DNA from: Spongiactinospora sp. TRM90649 | GTDB taxonomy: Bacteria > Actinomycetota > Actinomycetes > Streptosporangiales > Streptosporangiaceae | Assembly: GCF_029382225.1 (NCBI RefSeq) | Contig: NZ_JARLTC010000028.1 | Location: 1-64,000, forward strand | Length of the DNA stretch: 64,000 nucleotides | Direction of reading: 5' to 3' | Shown: piece by piece, positions 12,394 to 55,807 of the stretch | Position numbering within the stretch: position 1 is the first letter of the stretch | How the letters are laid out: each line of letters opens with the position of its first letter | Notes under the pieces: generated by a model | Seen by the model: the letters and a program-made list of their open reading frames with translations, nothing else | The model's database searches: none | What the model was told of the DNA's origin: nothing | Position numbers and translations under genes: made by a program

Positions 12394-14286
12394 ATGCAGC
12401 CAGCGGCTCATTTTCCTGTCCTCCCCGGCGGCCTGAAGCCCGCCATCGGGTACGTCCGCGTCTCGATGATGCTGGGCGAGAAGATCTCTCCAGAAGTCCA
12501 GATGGACTCCATCTCGGCCTGTGCCGCGCGTAAGGGGTTCTACGTTCCCGAGGGACTGTGGCCGCACGGCGGATGGATCGTCGAGCTGGACGTGTCGGGA
12601 CGCGACTTCAAGCGCGACATTCAGATCGCGGTGCAGGCCGTCGAGCAGCGCGTCGTGCGCGCGATCATCGTGTGGGAGTTCAGCCGGTTCGGCCGTGACC
12701 GGGAGGGCAATCCGACGCACCTGGGACGCATCGAGCGGGCGGGCGGGGAACTGGTGTCCGCGACCGAGGACGTGGACGCGCGCACCCCTGCCGGGCGCCT
12801 GGCTCGCGGGATTCACTTCGAGTTCGCCGCCTACTATTCGGACCTGGTGGGGCAACGCTGGTCGGAGGCGTTCCAGAACCGGCTCAAGCGCGGCCTGCCG
12901 CCACTGGGCGGTGACTACTTCGGCTACGTGCGCCGGGGCCGACAGCCTCATCCGCTGTTCCACGATCGGACCCTGCTCAATCCGGCGGACGGGCCTGAGC
13001 GCTATGAGCCCGACGTCGAGGGCGGCACGGGCGGCGCCTTGGCCGACATGTATGCGATATGGCTTACTGAACGTAACTTCTACGGTCTCGCGAAGAGTCT
13101 GAACATGCAGGGGATCCGGAAGACGACCGGCCGCGAATGGCACGCAGACGAAGTGGCCGAGGTGCTCGACCATGGATTCGGGGCGGGAAAGATCAGCGTG
13201 CACGACCCGGATTGCGAGTGCGGGCGACCGTCGCGGTGCGGGCACAGGGTGCTGTTCCCCGGCACCCAAAGGCCGGTGATCGGCATGGCGACGTGGGAGG
13301 CGTACGTCGACGCCCGGCAGGAAATGCAGCGGCTCCCACGCAAATCGCGCACATCCCGGCATTCGCTGTCCGGCCTGATCGTGCACGGACCGTGCGGGGG
13401 CGTCATGCACGTCTCCCGGCCCGCTGGGGACTTACAGGGATTCAAATGCGGCTGGCGGCAACGGCAGGGCGCTCGGACGGCGGGGGCGGAGGGTGTGGTG
13501 GTGTGCCAGGACACGTTCGTGCAGCGGTCATTGGTGATCCGGGCCCTGCTTGACGTGCTGGCCGAGTGGGTGCCGATGATCGAAGAGGCCGCACGGGCGA
13601 CGAGGCCAGAGCCGGGGACGAGCGACTCGAAGCAGCAGGCGATGCGACGGCTGCAACGGGAGCTGAGGCGTCTGGACGCTGAGCTGGACGAACAGACCAT
13701 GCTCCTGGCCCGCAAGGTCATCCCGGAAGACGCCTACGTCCGGGTCCGCGACAAGTGCCTCGCCGACCGGGCGGCGAAGCAGGCGGCGCTGGACACCCTA
13801 GAAGGACGTGCGAAGCCAGGCAGGGATGCCTTAGCGGCCGTTCCGGTGATCGAGGGCTTGGTGGCGGAGTGGGACAGTCTCGCCGTGACGGATCGGCGTC
13901 GGCTGCTGATGGAAGTGATCGAACGGGTAGAGGTGTGGCGCGACCGGCTGGACATCGCGCGAATCGTGGTGGTGCCGCGTTGGGAAGGCGGTCAGCCGGT
14001 CACGCGCGAGCTTCCGGGACGGCGGCGGATGGAGGCCGTGCGACGGGCGATCCCGGTTGTTCTGGCCGAGCGGTTCGGTGGGGCGGCTCGCTACGAGCGG
14101 CTGCGCGAGGTGGTGGCCGAGGCGGTGCCGGCCAGCAAGAAGGTGTTCAACGCGGCGATTCTGGGTCTGGCCGCCGAGGGGGCTCTGGTGCGCGAGCCAC
14201 TCAAAGATAAGCAGGGCACGGTGTATCGGCTGCCCGATGCGGTAGCGGAAGCACCCGCAGCATCGGGCAGCGAAACGAGGCGCTGA
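12394..14286 (+). CDS. int: Large serine integrase
   Basis: 630 residues; phiC31-type integrases are about 600. Catalytic domain at residues 16-165: the nucleophile is Ser24 in GYVRVSMM, with the arginine-rich EFSRFGRDREG near 105. Recombinase domain follows at about 190-290. A zinc-ribbon region lies around 330-380, with Cys residues in GPCGGVMH and FKCGW. A coiled coil lies at about 412-450 (the synapsis-control arm), and an unusual ~100-residue C-terminal extension is present. GAGGG precedes ATG 12394. Two TTA leucine codons (13432, 13831) are in frame, rare in such GC-rich genomes. It catalyses attP x attB integration, and with an RDF, excision. Confidence 0.95.
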   Translation: MQPAAHFPVLPGGLKPAIGYVRVSMMLGEKISPEVQMDSISACAARKGFYVPEGLWPHGGWIVELDVSGRDFKRDIQIAVQAVEQRVVRAIIVWEFSRFGRDREGNPTHLGRIERAGGELVSATEDVDARTPAGRLARGIHFEFAAYYSDLVGQRWSEAFQNRLKRGLPPLGGDYFGYVRRGRQPHPLFHDRTLLNPADGPERYEPDVEGGTGGALADMYAIWLTERNFYGLAKSLNMQGIRKTTGREWHADEVAEVLDHGFGAGKISVHDPDCECGRPSRCGHRVLFPGTQRPVIGMATWEAYVDARQEMQRLPRKSRTSRHSLSGLIVHGPCGGVMHVSRPAGDLQGFKCGWRQRQGARTAGAEGVVVCQDTFVQRSLVIRALLDVLAEWVPMIEEAARATRPEPGTSDSKQQAMRRLQRELRRLDAELDEQTMLLARKVIPEDAYVRVRDKCLADRAAKQAALDTLEGRAKPGRDALAAVPVIEGLVAEWDSLAVTDRRRLLMEVIERVEVWRDRLDIARIVVVPRWEGGQPVTRELPGRRRMEAVRRAIPVVLAERFGGAARYERLREVVAEAVPASKKVFNAAILGLAAEGALVREPLKDKQGTVYRLPDAVAEAPAASGSETRR

Positions 14287-22112: not shown

Positions 22113-22889
22113 GTGTCTCAGCTCAGCGACGTGAATCTTCACGCCATCAATTCCCTCACCAAGTACCCCTCGATTCCGACCCACCACCGGATGGACCCTC
22201 AGGGCAAGGGCGGCTTGCTAGAGGAGCCGACCATTTTCACCGGGCCGGTCATCGGCACTGAGAAGGTGGACGGAACCAACGGGCGGATCATCGTGCTGCC
22301 CAGCGGCACATGGTTGATCGGCTCTCGCGAAGACCTTCTCACCGCCAGTGGCGACATCGTGCACAACACGGCGCTCGGCGTCGTCGATGCCCTTCGGCCG
22401 GTCGCCGAGTCCGCGGCCACGATGGTGGCGGGCGGGTTCAGCGAGATTCTGGTGCTGTACCTGGAGGTGTACGGCTCCAGGCGGCTTCCGGCCTGGAAGC
22501 AGTACGGGTGCGGCGAGGCGGCGTACCGGCTGTTTGACGTGGCGTCGGTCCCGGCTGGGATGCTGTCGTGGGAGGTCGAGCGCATCGCCTCGTGGAGGCA
22601 GAACGGCGGGCAGGAGTTCGCCGCGGAGCCGGTGCTCGGCGATCTGGCGGCCCGCTGCGACCTGGCGCTCACCCCCCGCCTGTTCGAGATCGACGGCGGC
22701 GACCTGCCCTCCGACATCGAGGGCATGCGCGCCTTCATGGAGGCGTACCGGGGCACGCGGGTGGCCACCTCGGGCGAGCCCGGCCTGAACGAGGGGATCG
22801 TCCTGCGCGCCCCGGACCGAAGCGTGATCTCCAAGGCCCGGTTCCAGGACTACGACCGGACGCTCCAGCGCCGCGAAGGGCAGCGGTGA
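22113..22889 (+). CDS. RNA ligase family protein (Rnl2-like nucleotidyltransferase)
   Basis: 258 residues with the covalent-nucleotidyltransferase motifs in order: motif I KVDGTNGR with catalytic Lys51, motif IIIa LYLEVYG with Glu118, motif IV EGIVLR with Glu227, and motif V SKARF with Lys241. It is shorter than T4 Rnl2 (334), so the C-terminal domain is lacking or reduced. Expected to seal nicked RNA using ATP. Phage RNA ligases repair tRNAs cut by host defence nucleases; a partner kinase-phosphatase is not seen nearby. Confidence 0.85.
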   Translation: MSQLSDVNLHAINSLTKYPSIPTHHRMDPQGKGGLLEEPTIFTGPVIGTEKVDGTNGRIIVLPSGTWLIGSREDLLTASGDIVHNTALGVVDALRPVAESAATMVAGGFSEILVLYLEVYGSRRLPAWKQYGCGEAAYRLFDVASVPAGMLSWEVERIASWRQNGGQEFAAEPVLGDLAARCDLALTPRLFEIDGGDLPSDIEGMRAFMEAYRGTRVATSGEPGLNEGIVLRAPDRSVISKARFQDYDRTLQRREGQR

Positions 22890-25537: not shown

Positions 25538-26092
25538 GTGACTGAAAACGCCCAAGAGGTCGAGGTCAAGTACGCGGTACGAGACCTCGCCGCGTTGGAG
25601 GCCGCTCTGATACGACGCGGAGCCGTTCTGTCGCCTCCAGCGCTTCAGGATGATCAGGCGTATGCCCAACCCGGTTGGGAATACGGGCAAAGCAAGATCG
25701 GAGTGACGTTCGCCCGGCTGCGTACCCAGCACGACAGGCACCTGTTCACCATCAAACGGCCACTGGACAACGCGATGGCGTGCCTGGAGCACGAGACCGA
25801 GATCGCCGACCGGGAGCAGATGCACGAAGCCGTCGTCGCGATGGGATTTCGTCCCACGGTCCGCATCCGGAAGACCCGCCGGACCACGAGGCTCGCCGGG
25901 GTGGCGATCTGTGTGGACGAGGTGGAGCACGCAGGCGTGTTCATCGAGTTCGAGCGCACCGTGAGCGACCAGGAGTCCGGTGCCGCCGTGCAGGACGAAC
26001 TCGACGTCTTCGCCCGCTCGCTCGGGGTGGAACTGGAGCGCATGGCCGACACCTACGATTCGCTGGTGCGGGCGGCGCTGGCCTCGGCCTAG
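25538..26092 (+). CDS. CYTH-domain protein (class IV adenylate cyclase / triphosphate tunnel enzyme family)
   Basis: 184 residues from GTG 25538. The signature ExExK is at Glu7-Glu9-Lys11 (EVEVKY), followed by tunnel-lining basic and acidic strands: FARLRTQHDRHLFTIKRP, VRIRKTRR and VCVDEVEHAGVFIEFERT in order. The family contains CyaB adenylate cyclases, thiamine-triphosphatases and inorganic triphosphatases; substrate cannot be assigned. Alone on this strand, its stop overlaps that of the EEP gene on the other strand. Confidence 0.85.
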   Translation: MTENAQEVEVKYAVRDLAALEAALIRRGAVLSPPALQDDQAYAQPGWEYGQSKIGVTFARLRTQHDRHLFTIKRPLDNAMACLEHETEIADREQMHEAVVAMGFRPTVRIRKTRRTTRLAGVAICVDEVEHAGVFIEFERTVSDQESGAAVQDELDVFARSLGVELERMADTYDSLVRAALASA

Positions 26093-26880
26093 AACAGGGC
26101 GATCTCATCCGGCTCGGCGGCATCTCCGTACGGCAGGCGAACAGCGTCGAGGGCGATCTCCAGGCGGACTGCGGCATGGTCGGTCAGGCCCAATTCGCGG
26201 GTCTCGTGCAGGTATGCGCACCCGCCGATCCGGTCGGCCAGGGCCGCGCCCACGTGGAAGTAGTCGTAGCAGTAGCCCGCGCCCGTCCTGCCGATCCAAC
26301 TGTATGCCTGCGTCCCAGGTGAACAATGTTCATGGGCGTTGACGAACCCCTGAGAGCGAAGTGTGTCCAGCAGACCGAACTCGAACGGCAGGAACCCTGG
26401 GTGCATGGGAGAGTGGTCGGTGGCGATCACGTTGTAATCGCCACCGATCACCAGGTGGTCGCGCTCCTCAGCGGGCAGCTCATGTAGCGCTTTGAGTAGG
26501 GAAGCGATGAACAGCTCCTTGCGAGTGGTCTTGTCCGCACTGCGGTCTCGGCTCGGCACATAGACGCTGAGCCACCGCGTCCGCGGGTTCGTGTCAAAGA
26601 TCGCGCCGCTCACCCGGCCGGGAATGCTCACCTCGGAGAGCAGGAAGGATCGTCCGGCCAGGCGGCTCACCAGCGCCGCTCCCCGCTCGCCCACATCGGG
26701 CGTGTTGAGCACCGTGTACCCCGCATGGCGGAACCGGTCCAGCAGGTAAGCGGTGCCGGTGCCCCCGCTGGTCTCGGTCAGCAGGAAAATGTCCTCTTGC
26801 CGGGAGGTGAGCCAGCGCAGGATCAACTCTGCGCGCTCTTTGGACGCGGCCCCGATGTTGACGGTCAGCGCCGTGACCAT
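26089..26880 (-). CDS. Endonuclease/exonuclease/phosphatase (EEP) fold protein
   Basis: 263 residues. Metal-site landmarks: N-terminal TVNIGA, Glu in LLTETSGGTG near residue 36, GGDYNVIA near 146, the HP in DHSPMHPGF, and the final DH in GLTDHAAVRLEI near 230. The motifs fit the EEP superfamily (DNase I/APE1-like nucleases and phosphatases). Last gene of a minus-strand run with the kinase and radical SAM genes. A second EEP protein is encoded 2.3 kb upstream in the run. Substrate unknown. Confidence 0.82.
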   Translation of the reverse strand: MVTALTVNIGAASKERAELILRWLTSRQEDIFLLTETSGGTGTAYLLDRFRHAGYTVLNTPDVGERGAALVSRLAGRSFLLSEVSIPGRVSGAIFDTNPRTRWLSVYVPSRDRSADKTTRKELFIASLLKALHELPAEERDHLVIGGDYNVIATDHSPMHPGFLPFEFGLLDTLRSQGFVNAHEHCSPGTQAYSWIGRTGAGYCYDYFHVGAALADRIGGCAYLHETRELGLTDHAAVRLEIALDAVRLPYGDAAEPDEIALF

Positions 26881-26901
26881 CCGGCTCACCTCATCTCGTC
26901 G

Positions 26902-27504
26902 TCAGTTGCCGAGCTGCTCCATATCCCGGAGGAGTTGCGCTACCACTTCGTCCGGATCCAGATCGCGGCAGTCGGTCCGCACCTGACGCCAGCCGCGTGC
27001 GGCCAGGAAGGTGAACGCCTCCTGGTACAGCGCGATCTCCTGTTCGGGGGAACCGACGCGTTCCAGACGCGACCGTCTGGGACGTCTCGCCACCCGCTGC
27101 CGCAGAACTTCAGGAGCGTTGTGCAGGTAGAAGGATAGAGTCGCGGGTGGGACATGGGCGTTGTAATGCCAGATTTCTTGCAGGGGCAGACCGTCGAGGC
27201 GTTGCAGCACCAATGAGGATTGGACGTAGCGGTCGCTGATCACGACCTTCCCGGCTTCAAGCGCCGGCAGGATCTCGGCCTCCAGGTGCGCGTACCGGTC
27301 GGCGGCCACCGCCAAGGCCAGCGCCCGGCCGGTGAGAGCGCCCTCACTGGCGCGGATCAGCCGCCCGAACGGCGTGCCGGACGGCTCGGTGGTCACGTGA
27401 ACGTTCCGGCCGTCCGCGTCGAGCCGGGCGGCCAGGTGAGTGACCGCGGTGGTCTTGCCCACGCCGTTCGGCCCTTCCACTGCGATGAACAGGCCGCCGC
27501 TCAC
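26902..27504 (-). CDS. Thymidylate-kinase-like P-loop nucleotide kinase
   Basis: 200 residues from GTG 27504, which overlaps the radical SAM stop (GTGA). Walker A EGPNGVGKTT at 10-19, DRY at 91-93 (ISDRYVQSSLVLQ) and TEPSGTPFGRLIR near 39-51 match dTMP kinase. The LID region is arginine-rich (RRPRRSRLERV). Host genomes already carry tmk, so a special nucleotide substrate is plausible. Coupling to a radical SAM gene suggests a shared pathway. Confidence 0.85.
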   Translation of the reverse strand: MSGGLFIAVEGPNGVGKTTAVTHLAARLDADGRNVHVTTEPSGTPFGRLIRASEGALTGRALALAVAADRYAHLEAEILPALEAGKVVISDRYVQSSLVLQRLDGLPLQEIWHYNAHVPPATLSFYLHNAPEVLRQRVARRPRRSRLERVGSPEQEIALYQEAFTFLAARGWRQVRTDCRDLDPDEVVAQLLRDMEQLGN

Positions 27505-28595
27505 GAGTGACGGGTGATCTGCAACAAGGGGGGATCGGTCACGGGGCATTGTTCGGTGTCCACTTCGCCGATCCACGCGCCCTGGGCGATGAGGGCGGCA
27601 GGGCATCCTTTGCCACATGTGGTGTTCATGGCGCATGAGCCGCAGGTGGGGTTGGCGCCCATGCCGAGACGTCCGGTGAGGTCGTAGGCGTCGAGAGCCT
27701 CGGCGATCTCCTCGTGCAGGATGTTGCCGACCAGGAAATCGGCGTCAGCGTAGCGTGACTGCGGGGTCCGGGCGGCGAATACGAGGTAGGGACAGACCGC
27801 GGTGAGGCCGTCAGCGAAGACGTAGATGAGTTTGCCCGCGTCACATCCGGATAAGGGCTTGCTGTCATTGGGGAAGCGGATGTGGACGATGTCGACGTCC
27901 TGTTCGCGGAACCGCTCGGTGATTGCCCGGATCGTGCGCATCTTGCCGGTGTCGGCGGCCAGGCGTCCCTGACTTTTCACGCCACGGCCGAACGACGACA
28001 GCGGGTTCATCAGCACGTAGTCGGCGCCGACTTCGACGGCGAATGCGCACAGCGCGCCGAACTCCTCCGTGTCGGTGAGCGCGTTGGGGGTGGAGAGCAA
28101 CCCTTGCAGCAGGCCGGCCTCGGCGAAGGCGCGGGTGGTGGCCAGGGTGGTCTCGAACGATTTGGTGTTGCCACGGAACCGGCCGTGACTCTCCGGCCGG
28201 AAGCCGTCGAACGAAACATTGATGTGGACGTTGCCCAGCTCGGCCAGAGCGGCGATCTGCTCGTTGTTGGTCTGGGTGGCGTTGGTGCAGATCCCCAGTG
28301 GCAGGCCGAAGTCGGCGACAGCGCGGCAGATGTCCATGATGTGCGGGTGGACGAACGGCTCGCCCCCCGTCAGGGTCAGCCGCTGGACCCGAGCACGACG
28401 CAGCCGGGGGAACACGGTGTCGACGAGGTCCTCCACGCGCATGTGCTCGCCCCAGTCGCCCGATGAGACAAAGCAGTGCGCGCAGTGCAGGTTGCATCGC
28501 TCGGTGATCTGCACCAGGGCCTTGCGCTCGTCTCCTTCGACCGATGTACGGAAGTAACAGGAGGCGGCGTGAGTATCGAGGACGAGACGTTTCAA
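27501..28595 (-). CDS. Radical SAM enzyme with SPASM-type C-terminus
   Basis: 364 residues. The cluster motif CxxxCxxC is Cys34, Cys38, Cys41 (CNLHCAHC), followed by LTLTGGEPFVHP and SFDGF. A C-terminal SPASM-like group has Cys318, Cys321, Cys327, Cys331 and Cys350 (NPTCGSCAMNTTCGKGC). TTG 28595 is chosen because AGGAGG lies 6 bases before it; an in-frame ATG upstream would place that AGGAGG inside the gene. SPASM enzymes usually modify peptides, but some act on other substrates. No precursor peptide was found beside it. Confidence 0.88.
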   Translation of the reverse strand: MKRLVLDTHAASCYFRTSVEGDERKALVQITERCNLHCAHCFVSSGDWGEHMRVEDLVDTVFPRLRRARVQRLTLTGGEPFVHPHIMDICRAVADFGLPLGICTNATQTNNEQIAALAELGNVHINVSFDGFRPESHGRFRGNTKSFETTLATTRAFAEAGLLQGLLSTPNALTDTEEFGALCAFAVEVGADYVLMNPLSSFGRGVKSQGRLAADTGKMRTIRAITERFREQDVDIVHIRFPNDSKPLSGCDAGKLIYVFADGLTAVCPYLVFAARTPQSRYADADFLVGNILHEEIAEALDAYDLTGRLGMGANPTCGSCAMNTTCGKGCPAALIAQGAWIGEVDTEQCPVTDPPLLQITRHS

Positions 28596-28698
28596 GCGAA
28601 TCCTCCTAGCCATAGAAGTAGATCGTGAGGGATGAAATCCTTCCCGATACGCTGCTTTTGCTGGGACGAGCGCGCGGGGTCCGGGCGCGCCGGCTTGA

Positions 28699-29175
28699 TT
28701 ACTTTTCCTGCTCGGTAAGCAGGCGGGGGAGCACACCGATCTGTGCGATCAAGATGGCTCCATTAGGAAGTCGTTCCCCTTGATGCAAGCCCTCCGGACG
28801 AACCAAGGCCGTGCGTATGCCGTGGCAGGCTGGCTCGACCACGTCCTTCTTTAGGCTGTTTCCGACCCACAGCACCTGGCCCGGAGTGCCCTGCGCTGCG
28901 GTCAGAACACGCCGATAGAATTCCGGATCCGGTTTGGCGATGCCCATCAGATGTGATTGAAACACCTCATAGAAGAGATGGTCCACGCCTGCAATCTTCA
29001 GGGCCGGGCGGCGGTCCTGCATCTCCAGTGTGTTGGACGCCAACAGCAGGCGAAGGCCCAGACGGTGGAGAACGTGCAGCGCTGCCGCCGCGAACGGATC
29101 CACCGGCCGCGATGGTGCCGTTCGAGCCCCGAAGGTGATCGTCCCGCCGTAGTCAAAGACCACAGTGCGAATCAT
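28699..29175 (-). CDS. HAD-superfamily hydrolase-like protein
   Basis: 158 residues, a compact HAD fold. Nucleophile Asp8 in VFDYGGT, Ser in LLASNTLEM, Lys in IAKPDPEFYRRVL and WVGNSLKKDVV. The usual second Asp of motif I (DxD) is Gly10, seen in a minority of HAD enzymes and often linked to weak or non-phosphatase activity. The cap is minimal. The ATG overlaps the stop of the upstream EEP gene, so it is coupled to it. Confidence 0.85.
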   Translation of the reverse strand: MIRTVVFDYGGTITFGARTAPSRPVDPFAAAALHVLHRLGLRLLLASNTLEMQDRRPALKIAGVDHLFYEVFQSHLMGIAKPDPEFYRRVLTAAQGTPGQVLWVGNSLKKDVVEPACHGIRTALVRPEGLHQGERLPNGAILIAQIGVLPRLLTEQEK

Positions 29176-29963
29176 CAGTCACTACCGCTTGAGGTCAGTG
29201 AGAAGGTGGCGACGACAGGCCGGTGATCCGACTTCGGCTCTCCCTCTTCTTCCACCACGTGGTACCCGGTCACCGTACTATCAGGCAGAGTGGTGCAGAT
29301 CCGGTCCGCGCGGTATGCGACACCATCGCGGTGACCCACGGTCGGTGTTCTGTCGCCCCATACTGCGGCGACATCGATGAACCCTGCCTCCTTGACAGCC
29401 TCTGCCGCCCGCTGATTGCCTTTACGGCGAACCTGCGCGGGATCGGCCCCTGAGGCCACCCTCGGGATTTCGCCGACAGCGGCGGCATTGAAATCCCCCA
29501 CGGAGATGGTGTCCCGATGTCTGTAAAGGAAGAAGGTTTCCGCCTCGGCCTCTCGTATTACGGTGCTACCCGGAGCCCCATGGATGTTCATGAAGTACAC
29601 CGGCCGGTCCCGGCCGATCACGGAGAGCTTCACGACGGCCTGAGCGTGCCACCACGGCACAGCCTGGTCGTGATGCGTGCCCGCGACCTCCAGGCCGGGA
29701 CGCTCTCTGACCAGGATGGCCAGGTGACAGGCGTGATGATTGGAGTGCACCAGCGCTCGGTAGGTCATGCCGAGCCGGTCGGCGGCCAGGTTCAGCAGTC
29801 GATCCTCATCGTCGAGGTCGTCCACCCCCCACTTGCACTCCTGTAGACCGAGCAGATCCAGGTCCAGCTCGCCGAGCATGCAGAGCTGCTCCAGCAGGCG
29901 GCTTTCGCTCCCATCGTCGATTCCGCCGTTTTCTAGGTTGTACGTCCCAACCTTCAGATTCAT
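29175..29963 (-). CDS. Second EEP-fold protein
   Basis: 262 residues with a clearer active site than the first: TYNLENGG at 7-14 (Asn9, metal or phosphate contact), Glu in LLGLQECKWG near 42, NIHGAPGS near 123, SVGDFNAAA near 154 and the terminal SDHRPV near 250. Members cleave phosphodiesters or phosphomonoesters. Head of the run EEP, HAD, radical SAM, kinase, EEP. The MNL-x-V-x-x-Y-x-LENGGID start is repeated in a decayed copy just upstream. Confidence 0.87.
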   Translation of the reverse strand: MNLKVGTYNLENGGIDDGSESRLLEQLCMLGELDLDLLGLQECKWGVDDLDDEDRLLNLAADRLGMTYRALVHSNHHACHLAILVRERPGLEVAGTHHDQAVPWWHAQAVVKLSVIGRDRPVYFMNIHGAPGSTVIREAEAETFFLYRHRDTISVGDFNAAAVGEIPRVASGADPAQVRRKGNQRAAEAVKEAGFIDVAAVWGDRTPTVGHRDGVAYRADRICTTLPDSTVTGYHVVEEEGEPKSDHRPVVATFSLTSSGSD

Positions 29964-29986
29964 GGATCCACCTTCATCGTCGTCGA

Positions 29987-30333
29987 CTACTGATCGATGG
30001 GCTCGCCTGCGGCCGGATCGTCCGGGACGGGCGCCCGCTCGGGGAGAGCGGCTTCCGGCAGCGGGACGCCATGGCGGCGCAGCGCGTCGGTCAGGGCGGT
30101 CATTGAACGAAGTGCGCCGTCGACCAGATCAACCTGGTGGGCTCCTCCGGGCGCAGCGGCCATCGCGCGGCCGTCGATCCGACGACGGCCTGGTGCACGT
30201 TCTGCCGCCGAGGCAGACCGGCGCCGACTTTCAGGAACCGCCCGATGCCGGCCACTGCCACGCTGAAGCCGGCTACCGAGGCGTTGTCGATTCCGCCGTT
30301 TTCCAGGTCGTAGACGGCTACGGTCAGGTTCAT
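29987..30333 (-). pseudogene. Mosaic remnant: EEP start joined to DUF574-like and unknown fragments
   Basis: Starting at ATG 30333, MNLTVAVYDLENGGID copies the opening of the intact EEP gene. It then changes into FLKVGAGLPRRQNVHQAVV, which resembles the AdoMet motif of DUF574-type methyltransferases (DIGSGLPTQDNVHEVA), and later, in another frame, VDLVDGALRSMTALTDALRR and a Pro/Glu-rich tail. None of the parts is complete. This looks like scar tissue from repeated gene replacement at one place. Its start overlaps the helicase stop. Confidence 0.6.
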
Positions 30334-32657
30334 TCTTCCTTCCGACTTCTATGCGGAAGCGGATCGGGGACATCGACTCCAGCGGCGCGTAACGCCTTCA
30401 CACGTTCGGTGGGCTGCTGGCCCCGGCGAGCGATCTCCAGCTGGTTGTGAAACCAGGTACCGATGCGGTCGCCGTCAGGCGTGGTGAAGCTTTGCTTGAC
30501 CCAGGTCGGCTGGCCGTCTCTGCTGCCATGAAGGAGTAACAGGCTCAGGTTGCGGTACCAACGGGTGTCGCGGGCGCTCCAGATGAATCCCAACCGGTCC
30601 AGGGTCGTGATCTTCGCCTGAGAGAGGTTGCCCTCCCGGCGATCACGGCGCAATCGATTGACCTGCCTGCCCAACCTGCGCTTCGTGGAAGTAAGGTATT
30701 CCTGGGGAACGTCCAGATGCCCGTGGTCGCGGCGGAAGTCCTTCAGGTCGGCCACGAACTGTTTCCACTTTTGTTCCACCTCGAAGATGACCCCGATCTC
30801 TTCCAACGCGGCGACGTATTCGGGATCGAGTGCGGTCTGTCGCCGCCGGAAGCGTAGGTTGGTGTAGGCCCGCCCGAGCGGAAAACCATTGGAAGTTTTA
30901 TAATCCCTCGGGATGCGCAAATGTTTATGCTCGGCGTGAAAAGCGCGCAACTCGGCGAGGAGTTGGTCCCGTTTATGCTGATTGGGACGCCAGACCATCC
31001 CGATGGCTTCCAGCAGCGCGATCCGGCCGGCACTGAGCACCCCATTTTGATACTCGGTGCGCTGGCGATGGATAAAGCCTCCCAAATCCTCATCGTCCGC
31101 TGTCCGGTAGTCATGAGGAACGAGCAGGTCACCGTGCTTGGCGTAGTACGCCGAGCAGGCACCATATTTCTCTTCCCACGAACTGGTCGCGCAGCGCACC
31201 GTTTGCACGGTGATGGCTGAGGCGAATCCGTCCGGGACGGGCACTCCGCTGATGTGCAGCCACTCGGGAATCTTCATCGAGTAGGAAAGGGTCTGATCGC
31301 CGCCGATATTGCGGCGCTGTTCGGTAAGACGGACTGTCAGGTCCTCATCGTGGGTCGCCAGGGCACGCACGATCTGCCACAGCGGTGCGTACGCGGATGC
31401 CTGGAGCGCGGTCTCGGGGTCATCACCCGGCCCAAGGATCACCGGGATGATGACGCTGGCCGTCTTCGGCCCTGGCCGTGCCCCTCGACGCAGTGCGCGG
31501 CCGATGGCCTGGATGGTGTCGATGGGGGAGTTACGAGAGTCGATGAAGGCCACCGCGTCCACGGCGGGCACGTCGATGCCCTCGCCGAGCACGCGTGCGT
31601 TGGAGATGACGACGAGGTCCTCATCGTCTTCGCGTAGTCGGTCCAGGGCGGCGCGCCGTTGAGCGAGAGACTGGGTGCCGTGGACGTGGTCGACGCACAG
31701 GTCTGTACGCTCGCCGGGGTCGAGCAGGCTCTGCGCATGGGGCAGTGTGCCGGCGAAGTGCTTGGCATTGGTCACCAGGTTGTGGAAGGTGATCAGACGG
31801 CGGATGTCGTACTGGTGGGCCGCACGCAGGACCGCGATCTGCGTGGCCAGCACGGCCGGCGACAGCGCTGATCGGCCGCTTTGGTAGAACTCGGCCGGTC
31901 GCGGCATCTGAGCGGCGGCTCGGACCTGCTCATCGGTGATAATGGGCGCGATCACCCGGTAGTCGGCGAGCAGTCCGCCTTTCCGAGCCTCACCGAACGA
32001 CATTTGGTAGACGCGAGGCCCGAAGACTTCCTTATCGTCCATGCTGACCACGTCGTCCCCGCTGGTGAGCAGCACTTTGGGGGTAGCGGTCATATACAGG
32101 CGACGCGCGCTCGGAATGCGGTCATCGTCGTGGATGACGGCCCATGGTTTGGCGGCGCGGCCGACGCTGCGGTGCGCCTCATCGATCAAAATCAGGTCCC
32201 AGGAGGGCGCGGCATGCCGACCGTGCGCCTCGGCGACCACATGGAGGCTGTGATAAGTGACAGCGACCAGGGTCCTGCCTGGCGCGGCGGCCAGGTGGGC
32301 AAGTCGCTGCGGCTCAGAGGTGACGATCTCATCTTCGCCGTGCAGCGCCTGGCTCCGTGCGACGCTGGGGTCTGAACAGCAGGCGATGATTCGATCCCAC
32401 CGCGGCTGGCCGTCCAGCCTGCGCCACTCGGCGATCGTCTGAGTGATCAGTTCGAGGAACGGGGCGACGATCAGCACCCGGGCCGTTGCATGGTCGGCCA
32501 GGAGCCGGGCGGCGATCGCCGCGCCGGTCCTGGTCTTGCCGGTTCCGCAGGGCATGACCACGGTGGCCCGTCCACCGGTGGTCAGAGCGTCCACGGTGGC
32601 GTTGGCCGCGTCGCGCTGATGTGGCCATAGCGAAGGTCCGTTGAAGGTAGTCGGCAT
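30330..32657 (-). CDS. DEAD/DEAH-box helicase with four helicase-associated (HA) repeats
   Basis: 775 residues. Superfamily 2 core: Walker A PCGTGKTRTG with Lys41, DEAH near 154 (LILIDEAHRSVGRA), SATP-type MTATPK, and motif VI QAIGRALRRG near 428. Residues ~500-775 hold four ~65-residue helicase-associated repeats with the pattern W/K...L..F...HGHL.VP..Y, each ending LD.LGFIW or similar. Such proteins are common on actinobacterial plasmids and accessory islands; their role is unsettled. ATG 32657 begins the natural MPTTFNGPSLWPHQRDA; the frame upstream of it is not coding. Confidence 0.87.
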   Translation of the reverse strand: MPTTFNGPSLWPHQRDAANATVDALTTGGRATVVMPCGTGKTRTGAAIAARLLADHATARVLIVAPFLELITQTIAEWRRLDGQPRWDRIIACCSDPSVARSQALHGEDEIVTSEPQRLAHLAAAPGRTLVAVTYHSLHVVAEAHGRHAAPSWDLILIDEAHRSVGRAAKPWAVIHDDDRIPSARRLYMTATPKVLLTSGDDVVSMDDKEVFGPRVYQMSFGEARKGGLLADYRVIAPIITDEQVRAAAQMPRPAEFYQSGRSALSPAVLATQIAVLRAAHQYDIRRLITFHNLVTNAKHFAGTLPHAQSLLDPGERTDLCVDHVHGTQSLAQRRAALDRLREDDEDLVVISNARVLGEGIDVPAVDAVAFIDSRNSPIDTIQAIGRALRRGARPGPKTASVIIPVILGPGDDPETALQASAYAPLWQIVRALATHDEDLTVRLTEQRRNIGGDQTLSYSMKIPEWLHISGVPVPDGFASAITVQTVRCATSSWEEKYGACSAYYAKHGDLLVPHDYRTADDEDLGGFIHRQRTEYQNGVLSAGRIALLEAIGMVWRPNQHKRDQLLAELRAFHAEHKHLRIPRDYKTSNGFPLGRAYTNLRFRRRQTALDPEYVAALEEIGVIFEVEQKWKQFVADLKDFRRDHGHLDVPQEYLTSTKRRLGRQVNRLRRDRREGNLSQAKITTLDRLGFIWSARDTRWYRNLSLLLLHGSRDGQPTWVKQSFTTPDGDRIGTWFHNQLEIARRGQQPTERVKALRAAGVDVPDPLPHRSRKEE

Positions 32658-32667
32658 GATCCTTGAT

Positions 32668-32946
32668 TTAGAAGTCAGAGGTTGAAGGAGGGGTGCAGCG
32701 TGGACGGCTGCGGCCGTCTTTGGCGGAGAGGGCCGGCCAGAGTTTCGGATCGGCGAGGAGCATCCGCTGCCACAGCCCCTCGGCGGCGCGATCGGCCACG
32801 CTGACGCCGTGCGCCGAAAGGCCGCAGAAGAACGCGATGAAGACGCGGTGATAGCACAACCACAGCACCACCCACCGGCCCCCGGCCCGGCCTTCCAGGT
32901 CCCGCGCCAGCGCCCGTTCCCTCTCATGCTCACGAAGGCGCGGCAC
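32668..32946 (-). CDS. Hypothetical small protein
   Basis: 92 residues from GTG 32946, overlapping the preceding gene by 17 bases. The core WVVLWLCYHRVFIAFFCGLS is hydrophobic enough for one membrane helix or a buried core. No family recognised. The spacing to the helicase (10 bases) suggests one transcript. Confidence 0.5.
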   Translation of the reverse strand: MPRLREHERERALARDLEGRAGGRWVVLWLCYHRVFIAFFCGLSAHGVSVADRAAEGLWQRMLLADPKLWPALSAKDGRSRPRCTPPSTSDF

Positions 32947-33262
32947 GGGCCGATCCCCTCGCACGGGCCGGGCCGTCGTCGCCGTTGAGCAGCCGGTAGT
33001 CGGCGGCGAGCGCCGCCGCCGCACCGTCCACCGTGCGGCGGATCCGGCACAGCCGTCGCCCCCCGCTGCGTACCTGTGGGCTACACCAGCGGATGTCCGT
33101 GTCGTTCACCGTGGCGACCAGGCCGTGACAGAGGGAAACGATCATCCGGCACCGATCACCATTGAGGTCGGCGTCAATGCCCCGCTTGAGCAGCTCACGA
33201 GCCAACCGGGCGCCGAATCGCCCGGCGGTGGCCGGGACGCAGACGCGCATGAGCGAATCCAT
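32930..33262 (-). CDS. Hypothetical protein
   Basis: 110 residues. MRVCVPATAGRFGARLARELLK then SLCHGLVATVNDTDIRWCSP; mixed alpha-beta, one or two Cys. The nearby ATG at 33250 may be the true start. It follows the methyltransferase stop by two bases, suggesting a regulated run methyltransferase, two small genes, helicase. Not recognised. Confidence 0.6.
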   Translation of the reverse strand: MDSLMRVCVPATAGRFGARLARELLKRGIDADLNGDRCRMIVSLCHGLVATVNDTDIRWCSPQVRSGGRRLCRIRRTVDGAAAALAADYRLLNGDDGPARARGSARAAPS

Positions 33263-33264
33263 CG

Positions 33265-34068
33265 CTACCCCTCAGTCCACGAAATGGTTCCGACGCCTCC
33301 GAGGAAGAACCCTTCGTGTGGAAGGTGCTCGTACCTGGGCAGGCCGAGATCGGGCCGCCACTCAGCGACATCCACCAGGCCCGGGGGATGGAGTTCTGGC
33401 ACGTGCGGGGCGAGCAGAGCGGTCACCTGCTCACGTGTGCGTGGGAAGATCGGTGTCGGCGATGCTTCGTAGATCTTGCGCGCCGCCTTCGATGCCTCCG
33501 GCGACATGTCCTCGTCGCACGCGTGCGTGAGCACCACGACACTTCCTTTCCCCAGGCGCTCGGCGAACCGGCCGAGGACCCCAACCAGCAGGTCGTCCTG
33601 CTCCACGAAGTGGGCGACAGCGACAGCGATAAGCCCAGTCGGTCGATCAGGGCGCAGAAGTTCGCGTGCATCAGCGCTGTCCAGGATCGCGTCAGGCTTT
33701 CGCAGATCCCCCTCCACCATGGCGACACCGGGGCCCGCCAGCAGGGCACGGCCATGCGTGAGCACCACCGGATCGTTGTCCACATACACCACGCGCGCGG
33801 CTGGGTTCACCCTGCGGGCGACCTCGTGCACGTTGTCCTGGGTGGGCAGGCCGGAGCCGATGTCGAGGAACTGCTCGACGCCGGCCTCGGCAAGGGTGCG
33901 CACGGCACGGCCAAGGAAGTCCCGGTTCTGCCGCACGGCTCGCCGGACATTGGGGCTCGCCTTCTCCAGCTCCGCGGCGGCCACGCGATCGACGGCGTAG
34001 TTGTCCTTACCGCCGAGCAGGAAGTCGTAGACCCGAGCCGCATTCGGGTGGGACACATCGATCATCAT
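33265..34068 (-). CDS. SAM-dependent methyltransferase, DUF574 type
   Basis: 267 residues. The opening HPNAARVYDFLLGGKDNYAV and the AdoMet motif FLDIGSGLPTQDNVHEVA at about 73-90 are diagnostic of this actinobacteria-specific family; VVYVDNDPVVL follows. The methyl acceptor is unknown for the family. ATG 34068 has no clear ribosome site, so a short or absent leader is likely. Divergent from the XRE regulator across a 212-base region with an operator-like repeat. A second member is at 37,585. Confidence 0.88.
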   Translation of the reverse strand: MMIDVSHPNAARVYDFLLGGKDNYAVDRVAAAELEKASPNVRRAVRQNRDFLGRAVRTLAEAGVEQFLDIGSGLPTQDNVHEVARRVNPAARVVYVDNDPVVLTHGRALLAGPGVAMVEGDLRKPDAILDSADARELLRPDRPTGLIAVAVAHFVEQDDLLVGVLGRFAERLGKGSVVVLTHACDEDMSPEASKAARKIYEASPTPIFPRTREQVTALLAPHVPELHPPGLVDVAEWRPDLGLPRYEHLPHEGFFLGGVGTISWTEG

Positions 34069-34222
34069 TTGTCCGCTCTGGCCACAATTGCGGCCAAGAC
34101 GTGTCTGAGCGGCGCCGGCAGAGGGAGTGCGGTACCCATGTCTGAACTGGCCTCTCGCGTGGGGCAGGTGGTAGCGGGCGACCCAATGGTGAAGGGCAGT
34201 TTTCGACGATGCCAACAGGGGT

Positions 34223-54195: not shown

Positions 54196-54641
54196 ACGCC
54201 ACCGTCAGCGCGATGGCCGACTGGATCCGCCCCTGGTACCCATCCGGGCCCATCGGTCATCTCCATCCCGACTGTGCGCACTTGCTCGGTGCCGAAGCCG
54301 AGCCAGCCCAGGGGGCGGGCTGGCTAGACCCCCGGCGAGGGCTCGTATGCCGCCCCTGCCTTGAACGGTACGACGCCGCGCTGTACCGCACCGTCTTCTC
54401 CCCGCCCTCCTGGGACGCCGTCTGCGAGAACTGCGGCGAATCCATGAACGGCGAGCAGGAGGACGAGCCACACGCCGAGGAGCCACAGCACTGGTTCGCC
54501 GAGGCCCCACGGCCCCGCACCGAGGCGGACGCCGTGGACTGGGCCGCCGACCACCGGTGCGTGCCCATCGTGGAGATCGTCCCGCCCGGCCTGCGGGCCA
54601 GGCCCGTGCACACCATCCACCCGATCGGAGATCTGCTGTGA
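54192..54641 (+). CDS. Hypothetical protein with cysteine pairs
   Basis: 149 residues from GTG 54192. GHLHPDCAHLL, LVCRPCLERYDAALYR and AVCENCGESMNG give potential zinc ligands. The acidic centre (EQEDEPHAEEPQ) separates them from the C-terminus. GTGA overlap with the sliding-clamp gene. Family not recognised. Confidence 0.68.
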   Translation: MNATVSAMADWIRPWYPSGPIGHLHPDCAHLLGAEAEPAQGAGWLDPRRGLVCRPCLERYDAALYRTVFSPPSWDAVCENCGESMNGEQEDEPHAEEPQHWFAEAPRPRTEADAVDWAADHRCVPIVEIVPPGLRARPVHTIHPIGDLL

Positions 54642-55807
54642 AACTGACCGTTCCCACGAAGGGCCTGGCCGATGGCATCGCCTTCGCCGCCCGCGCCATC
54701 CCCAAGCGCTCGCCGGTGCCCGTGTTGTCCGGCATCGCCTTGCGCGCCACCGGTGGCCGGCTCGCCGCCGAGGCGTACGACTACGAGATCTCGATGCGCT
54801 GCGAAGTGCAGGCCCATGTGGCCGACGAAGGCTCGGTGCTGGTGCCCGGCCGGGTGCTGGCCGAGATCTGCGCCAAACTGCCCGGCGACGAAGTGGTGAT
54901 CAGTACCGACGCGACGATGGCGGAGCTGACCTGTGGCCGGGTCGCCGTCCGGCTGCCGCTGATGCCGCTGGAGGACTTCCCCGACCTTCCTGAGACGCCA
55001 CCCCTGCTCGGCACCATCGAGAGCGAGGCCTTCACACAGGCCCTCGCCCAGATAGCCCCGGCGACGTCCAAGGACGACGCGCTGCCGATGCTCACCGGCA
55101 TGCTCATCGACCTGGAGAAGGACCGGATGACGTTGGCGGCGACCGACCGCTACCGGCTCGCCCGGCGTGAGATCACCCGCCCGGTCTGGACGCCCGCCTG
55201 CGACGCGACGGGGGCACTGCTCGTCCCGGCCCGGCGGCTGCGCGAGGAGGTCAAGCGCATGCCGTCCGGTGTGCTGGAAATCGGTCACGACCCAGCGGCG
55301 GCCGGGCTGGTGTCGGTGAGCGTGGAGGCGCCCATCGGGCAGCGCATACTGACTTCGCGCCTGATGGAGGAGCAGTTCATCGACTACAAGGCTCACTTCG
55401 AGAAGTTCGGCGCCACCGCGACCAGGTGGGCCGCCTTCGAGGTCAGGCCGGTGATCGACGCCGTCAGGCGGGTCGGCCTGGTGGCGGGGGAGAAGTCACC
55501 GGTCCGCCTGTCGTTCACCGAGGAGACGGTGATGGTCAGCGCGGGCCACCACAGCGAGGGGGCCGCCGACGAACTGGTGGACGCCCAACTGGAGGGCGAG
55601 CCGATCACCGTCACCTACCAGCCGGACCACCTGCTGGTGGCGCTCCAGGCCGCCGCCGCCGAGAAGTACCGCCCCGGATCGGCTCGCGTGCGGCTCGGCA
55701 TGGCGGCGCCCGCCAAGCCGACTCTGCTGCTCGGCGACGTGCGCACGCAGGAAGACGAGCCCGCCTACCGATGCATCGTCATGCCGCTCAGGATGGGCGA
55801 CGAATGA
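54638..55807 (+). CDS. dnaN: DNA polymerase III beta-subunit-like sliding clamp
   Basis: 389 residues from GTG 54638, close to chromosomal DnaN length. Three clamp domains are recognisable: domain 1 GIAFAARAIPKRSPVPVLSG, domain 2 LPMLTGMLIDLEKDRMTLAA with TDRYRLARREI, and a C-terminal region ending YRCIVMPLRMGD (canonical clamps end ...MPMR/L). It encircles DNA and tethers polymerase. An element-encoded clamp suggests independent replication, perhaps with host polymerase. Starts in a GTGA overlap. Confidence 0.9.
   Translation: MKLTVPTKGLADGIAFAARAIPKRSPVPVLSGIALRATGGRLAAEAYDYEISMRCEVQAHVADEGSVLVPGRVLAEICAKLPGDEVVISTDATMAELTCGRVAVRLPLMPLEDFPDLPETPPLLGTIESEAFTQALAQIAPATSKDDALPMLTGMLIDLEKDRMTLAATDRYRLARREITRPVWTPACDATGALLVPARRLREEVKRMPSGVLEIGHDPAAAGLVSVSVEAPIGQRILTSRLMEEQFIDYKAHFEKFGATATRWAAFEVRPVIDAVRRVGLVAGEKSPVRLSFTEETVMVSAGHHSEGAADELVDAQLEGEPITVTYQPDHLLVALQAAAAEKYRPGSARVRLGMAAPAKPTLLLGDVRTQEDEPAYRCIVMPLRMGDE

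Follow-up and report, generated by a model that had tools for sequence, protein, structure and literature searches.

A radical SAM, thymidylate kinase and exonuclease III-like gene cassette with an exchangeable hydrolase in a Spongiactinospora prophage

The genes analysed here lie in a prophage of Spongiactinospora sp. TRM90649, within the first 64,000 nucleotides of contig NZ_JARLTC010000028.1 (this whole stretch being called the window). They encode a radical SAM/SPASM enzyme (rSAM), a thymidylate-kinase family protein (TMK) and an exonuclease III/AP-endonuclease-like protein (EEP2), which form a conserved core, together with a fourth gene, here coding for a CYTH triphosphate-tunnel enzyme. 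Catalytic residues are retained among the relatives, the substrate pocket of the kinase is remodelled, and the fourth gene is exchanged between loci for other hydrolases. The explanation that we tentatively prefer is that this horizontally spread cassette makes a modified thymidylate-like nucleotide and protects its carrier, with a likely use in conflicts with phages.

Conservation of the core and exchange of the fourth gene

The rSAM protein was scanned against 84,980 species genomes, which provided ~52 close relatives with 44-87% identity. A total of 57 loci was scored, namely the window, 53 genome loci, one IMG/VR contig and two plasmids. rSAM, TMK and EEP2 are adjacent in 52 of them, spanning several phyla, and four of the five exceptions correspond to contig ends or broken copies. 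Since the pairwise identities of the three proteins across loci are correlated (r ~0.90 vs. a permutation maximum of 0.47), the three genes co-evolve and travel together. The cassette is nevertheless rare, with 11 occurrences in 150 genomes of the family and 3 in the 396 genomes of a phylum sample. Most copies were found in Actinomycetota; a Ryanbacteria genome of ~0.9 Mb and phage genomes are among the other carriers, and several copies are disrupted by a frameshift, a stop or an insertion. Some Micromonospora copies have in addition an HD-domain-like protein upstream (below the curated cut-off) and a protein in which the eye recognises an aminoglycoside-phosphotransferase-type kinase, although a family search gave no match for it.

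In the window, the core genes are on the minus strand: rSAM at 27501..28595, TMK at 26902..27504 with a GTG start, and EEP2 at 26089..26880, with an alternative GTG start at 26889. The CYTH gene (25538..26092) is on the plus strand, convergent with EEP2. A first-pass annotation, made from the letters alone, had grouped these four genes with a HAD hydrolase and a second EEP protein (EEP1). Profile searches confirmed all six open reading frames (ORFs) and their domain types: CYTH (2.2e-15), Thymidylate_kin (9.8e-28), Radical_SAM (9.3e-23), HAD hydrolase (1.9e-13) and, for the two EEP proteins, Exo_endo_phos (E 1.3e-6 and 1.6e-5). The tight start/stop overlaps described for the whole run hold for rSAM and TMK, where GTGA is the overlap of the rSAM stop and the TMK start, for EEP1 and HAD, which share one base, and for the convergent EEP2 and CYTH genes, whose stop codons overlap, but not for HAD and rSAM. 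The latter most likely starts at the TTG at position 28595, because AGGAGG, its own ribosome-binding site, stands immediately 5' of this codon and the resulting length agrees with that of its relatives; HAD and rSAM are therefore separated by ~103 bp.

As for the fourth gene, it changes with the clade of the rSAM tree among hydrolases of different folds, all of which act on triphosphates or pyrophosphates. The convergent CYTH gene is that of the main actinobacterial group, while NUDIX takes this place in Lentzea, Saccharothrix and Nocardia, and MazG in Streptomyces, Embleya and their phages. The Ryanbacteria genome has CYTH plus NUDIX, and Aureispira has CYTH plus a deoxynucleoside kinase. The CYTH proteins conserve ExExK as well as the basic and acidic residues of the tunnel. 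That unrelated enzymes of common activity replace a single gene hints, more strongly than any other observation, at a nucleoside triphosphate as the object of the cassette.

TMK scores 99.4 bits against the dTMP kinase equivalog (cut-off 83.25) and, like bacterial TMKs in general, has the P-loop, the DRY motif, the invariant catalytic arginines and the residues which form hydrogen bonds with thymine. In S. aureus TMK, R70, S97 and Q101 hydrogen-bond a thymine-based ligand, Phe66 stacks and Tyr100 lies in the pocket (PMC10610096). The module kinases can presumably be numbered accordingly through the motif DRYxxSSLxxQ. With this numbering, D69, R70, R92, S97 and Q101 are kept in all 35 module kinases compared, whereas the stacking aromatic at position 66 is replaced by V, I, L or C and Tyr100 by Leu (35/35, aromatic 0/35). 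The tyrosine at the second of these positions, Tyr103 in M. tuberculosis TMK, is close to the 2' position of the sugar. A second, ordinary TMK, the housekeeping enzyme of the host, is encoded on another contig (C68) of the same genome and has Tyr at both positions. Since two aromatic pocket residues are non-aromatic throughout, a non-standard thymidylate is suggested, and the alignment is most simply read as that of a kinase whose thymidylate-like substrate has an altered base or sugar.

EEP2 had initially been counted among generic phosphatases, yet both profiles and structure place it with the exonuclease III/AP endonucleases: all its top-ranked PDB profile matches belong to these enzymes, and Mth0212 and NExo are its best Foldseek matches. 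Its residues E36, Y107, D148, N150, D206, D234 and H235 are invariant and constitute the complete exonuclease III set. EEP2 is thus, as judged from these residues, a catalytically complete relative of this family. It differs from the characterised members by scores below the two NCBIfam exonuclease III equivalog cut-offs (47 vs. 182.55 and 45.5 vs. 99.05 bits) and by a variable C-terminal tail, whose last two residues are LF in 30 of 40 sequences (~26089-26100, minus strand, in the window). This ending may serve for docking or be a sliding-clamp motif, but most sequences lack the glutamine that usually leads such a motif, so that clamp binding stays only an idea.

Concerning rSAM, the cysteines CxxxCxxC and C-x(9-15)-G-x4-C ... 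CxxCx5Cx3C ... C, the latter being those of SPASM domains, are present in all 40 aligned relatives, which identifies it as a full SPASM enzyme. Its AlphaFold model (pLDDT 86) is nearest to SuiB, PqqE, SkfB, BlsE and anSME, then to viperin and MoaA. Since these neighbours spread over a modest range of Z, the fold leaves the choice between a peptide and a nucleotide substrate undecided. BlsE, the SPASM-type cytosylglucuronate decarboxylase of blasticidin S, acts on a nucleoside derivative and is the second-best PDB sequence match of rSAM (E 1.7e-20; VIA Z 22.1); however, rSAM scores 58.5 bits with the NCBIfam BlsE model, whose cut-off is 400, and blasticidin genes are absent nearby. Membership of the viperins was likewise rejected, as rSAM reaches 54.8 bits with model NF038283 (cut-off 180; partial match over 77-193). 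The possibility of a modified peptide, also raised in the first-pass annotation, is disfavoured because the radical SAM core begins after only ~20-30 residues, leaving no N-terminal recognition domain, and because no conserved small ORF or precursor peptide was found in the 600 bp 5' of 40 rSAM copies. In one Streptomyces plasmid copy (L090:14971-16080), the third radical SAM cysteine is substituted (CNEKCAHY), so that this copy may be inactive.

A proposed modified thymidylate-like nucleotide and the competing explanations

The conserved co-occurrence of the core, the interchangeable nucleoside triphosphate hydrolases and the remodelled kinase pocket all support the earlier suggestion that an unusual nucleotide or triphosphate is handled. 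In the route that we envisage, rSAM would alter a pyrimidine nucleotide by hydrogen-atom abstraction, the remodelled TMK would phosphorylate the altered monophosphate to the diphosphate, and the nucleoside diphosphate kinase of the host would complete the analogue triphosphate, which would poison DNA synthesis. CYTH, NUDIX or MazG, whichever is the fourth gene, could then destroy surplus analogue triphosphate, and EEP2 could rid the carrier's DNA of analogue residues or of 3' ends that are blocked. Carried as cargo by prophages and defence islands, the cassette would likely be used in conflict with invading phages. A more specific version, in which we place less confidence, is that of an undescribed anti-phage system of prophages and islands, where the SPASM enzyme would make a new modified DNA building block, probably resembling thymidine but altered in its sugar or base, a specialised TMK activate it, and EEP2 and the exchangeable triphosphatase immunise the carrier.

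The logic of such a cassette has precedents. In Photorhabdus ThmA-C, a radical SAM enzyme, a nucleoside kinase and a triphosphatase are sufficient for E. coli to produce 4'-thiothymidine, a compound to which the triphosphatase by itself confers resistance (PMC12691670). Like the present cassette, ThmA-C is a compact set of these three activities, co-inherited while the flanks vary; on the other hand, ThmB is described as an AbmG-like nucleoside kinase, whereas the cassette kinase belongs to the thymidylate kinase family, and the description of ThmA-C includes no counterpart of EEP2. An Escherichia plasmid match of rSAM was considered as a ThmA-like cluster and set aside, as neither kinase nor triphosphatase is annotated beside it. 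Viperin and pVip also combine a radical SAM enzyme with an adjoining nucleotide kinase and are carried as defence, and viperins are among the structural neighbours of rSAM; the cassette, however, has a full SPASM enzyme, EEP2 and a triphosphatase. Excision can counter analogues of this kind, since a proofreading exonuclease takes viperin's product off an RNA end (PMC9415739). On the best reading, the cassette would work like ThmA-C, compared here by its description, and like viperin, an analogy that does not imply membership of either. While every enzyme family is known, the rSAM-TMK-EEP2-hydrolase set is itself undescribed in the literature searched, subscription journals and preprints being outside this coverage. 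If the proposed route is true, the cassette would be a DNA-directed counterpart of viperin, i.e. a nucleotide-derived chemical weapon whose dedicated self-protection acts on DNA as well as in the nucleotide pool; a new reaction of radical SAM chemistry, and possibly a lead for nucleoside drugs, would come with it. Which substrate is used can be tested directly through the altered kinase pocket.

The defence role that had been thought plausible finds backing of a circumstantial kind in the carriage as prophage cargo and in neighbouring defence genes. The Agreia copy adjoins Gabija, in Micromonospora inaquosa EEP2 and CYTH are separated by a Septu-like PtuA/PtuB pair (L033:10773-13153), and another copy is near a DrmMI/type IIG-like methyltransferase gene. 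Strains related to M. inaquosa have different genes at the Septu position. In a small comparison with random regions as controls, counting families and not loci, the neighbours of the cassette included Gabija, Septu, HEC-01, DpdE and DrmMI-like genes, and the controls gave mainly generic helicase or kinase matches. As for the core itself, its identity with a described anti-phage system was rejected for want of a strong PADLOC match: CYTH and EEP2 gave none, rSAM and TMK gave only generic partial ones, and pVip matches the radical SAM core only.

Several points weigh against the modified-nucleotide explanation. The cassette has no known product or activity, the structural neighbours of rSAM are mostly peptide enzymes, and several relatives lack any fourth gene adjoining the core. 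With samples of this size, the enrichment in defence genes is suggestive only. Also, a direct role in host DNA repair fits the same enzymes.

This last point leads to nucleotide-pool sanitation and repair, an unlikely alternative but the best placed. The hydrolase would convert damaged deoxynucleoside triphosphates into monophosphates and EEP2 would excise damaged or blocked DNA ends, while rSAM would mend a damaged pyrimidine nucleotide and TMK re-phosphorylate the mended product. Spore photoproduct lyase, a radical SAM enzyme that repairs pyrimidine damage in DNA, offers a model; all members except rSAM come from house-cleaning, salvage or DNA-repair families, and the enlarged non-aromatic TMK pocket could accept a damaged base. 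However, because the distribution is very patchy (as in the phylum sample above) and the copies are carried by prophages and often decayed, cargo suits the cassette better than housekeeping.

Slightly less probable again is that the set makes a nucleoside antibiotic for secretion, as a minimal biosynthetic cluster whose kinase and hydrolase serve synthesis and self-resistance. ThmA-C follows the same logic, the copies are mostly in the antibiotic-rich Actinomycetota, and creatininase-, asparaginase- or kinase-like genes adjoin some of those in Micromonospora. Yet no conserved transporter or secretion gene was seen, a Ryanbacteria genome of this small size and phage genomes are unexpected carriers, and a dedicated exonuclease III is, to our knowledge, unusual in nucleoside antibiotic clusters.

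Synthesis of a hypermodified base for the DNA of the phage or the host, with EEP2 cutting or correcting wrongly modified DNA, is improbable. The kinase and a DNA nuclease do occur together, and the carrier prophage has 7-deazaguanine DNA-modification genes as well (see below), but the conserved core includes no DNA-modifying transferase or glycosylase and the majority of the loci are not obviously phages. Finally, very little speaks for a role of rSAM in modifying a ribosomally synthesised peptide, or of CYTH in cyclic-nucleotide signalling, the remaining genes being incidental: SuiB, SkfB and PqqE rank at the top of the structural matches of rSAM and CYTH is just above the NCBI class IV cyclase cut-off (60.8 vs. 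57.95 bits), but rSAM has neither the recognition domain nor the upstream peptide gene, and CYTH is swapped for NUDIX or MazG, neither of which makes cyclic nucleotides.

The EEP1-HAD unit and the carrier prophage

On the evidence of their separate occurrence, the six genes had been merged from two independently inherited units, whose border is the gap between HAD and rSAM. EEP1 (29175..29963, minus strand), which matches no exonuclease III model, and HAD (28699..29175, minus strand) gave no tblastn match in any other rSAM locus, where rSAM, TMK, EEP2 and CYTH are found without them; the expected co-occurrence in other genomes was thus borne out for the core only, and the single six-gene cassette was rejected. 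Relatives of EEP1 are present in 9 of the 150 family genomes, with HAD adjacent in several and an HA-repeat helicase in some, and the pair recurs without rSAM in other genomes, several times with this helicase. In the window, the companion is a DEAD/ResIII helicase with four HA repeats (30330..33050, minus strand; ResIII 3e-20). The order MT19-helicase-EEP1-HAD is repeated on contig C56 of the same genome (L116:3386-9375). Because the core and the EEP1-HAD pair recur separately, the window displays a junction of two cassettes, the second being composed of the MT19 methyltransferase, the HA-repeat helicase, EEP1 and HAD (28699-33050 and 33265-34215). A short ORF (30100-30333, minus strand), which begins MNLTVAVYDLENGGID, adjoins EEP1 (MNLKVGTYNLENGGID) and is likely its broken N-terminal duplicate.

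The mobile element suspected at first is confirmed to be a prophage, of roughly 90-100 kb, within which the window lies. A large serine integrase is encoded on its left side (12394..14286, plus strand; PHROG integrase 1.7e-53), and the prophage that carries EEP2 has its own sliding clamp gene (DNA polymerase processivity factor; 54557..55807, plus strand; PHROG 1.2e-64). Primase/helicase genes are also in the window, and the structural and lysis genes (terminase, major head protein, tape measure and endolysin) are beyond it, reaching ~106 kb of the contig. In two IMG/VR prophages, the cassette stands shortly 3' of tail, endolysin and holin-like genes, and this position behind the lysis genes is a usual cargo site. 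Outside the window, at ~72.7-75.7 kb of contig C38 (L140:10682-13720), genes for a DpdA-like transglycosylase, a QueE-like radical SAM protein and a GTP cyclohydrolase were found, and the prophage likely carries a 7-deazaguanine DNA modification set. Also, the ORF at 22113-22889 (plus strand), TEKVDGTNGRIIV, resembles by eye a phage RNA ligase.

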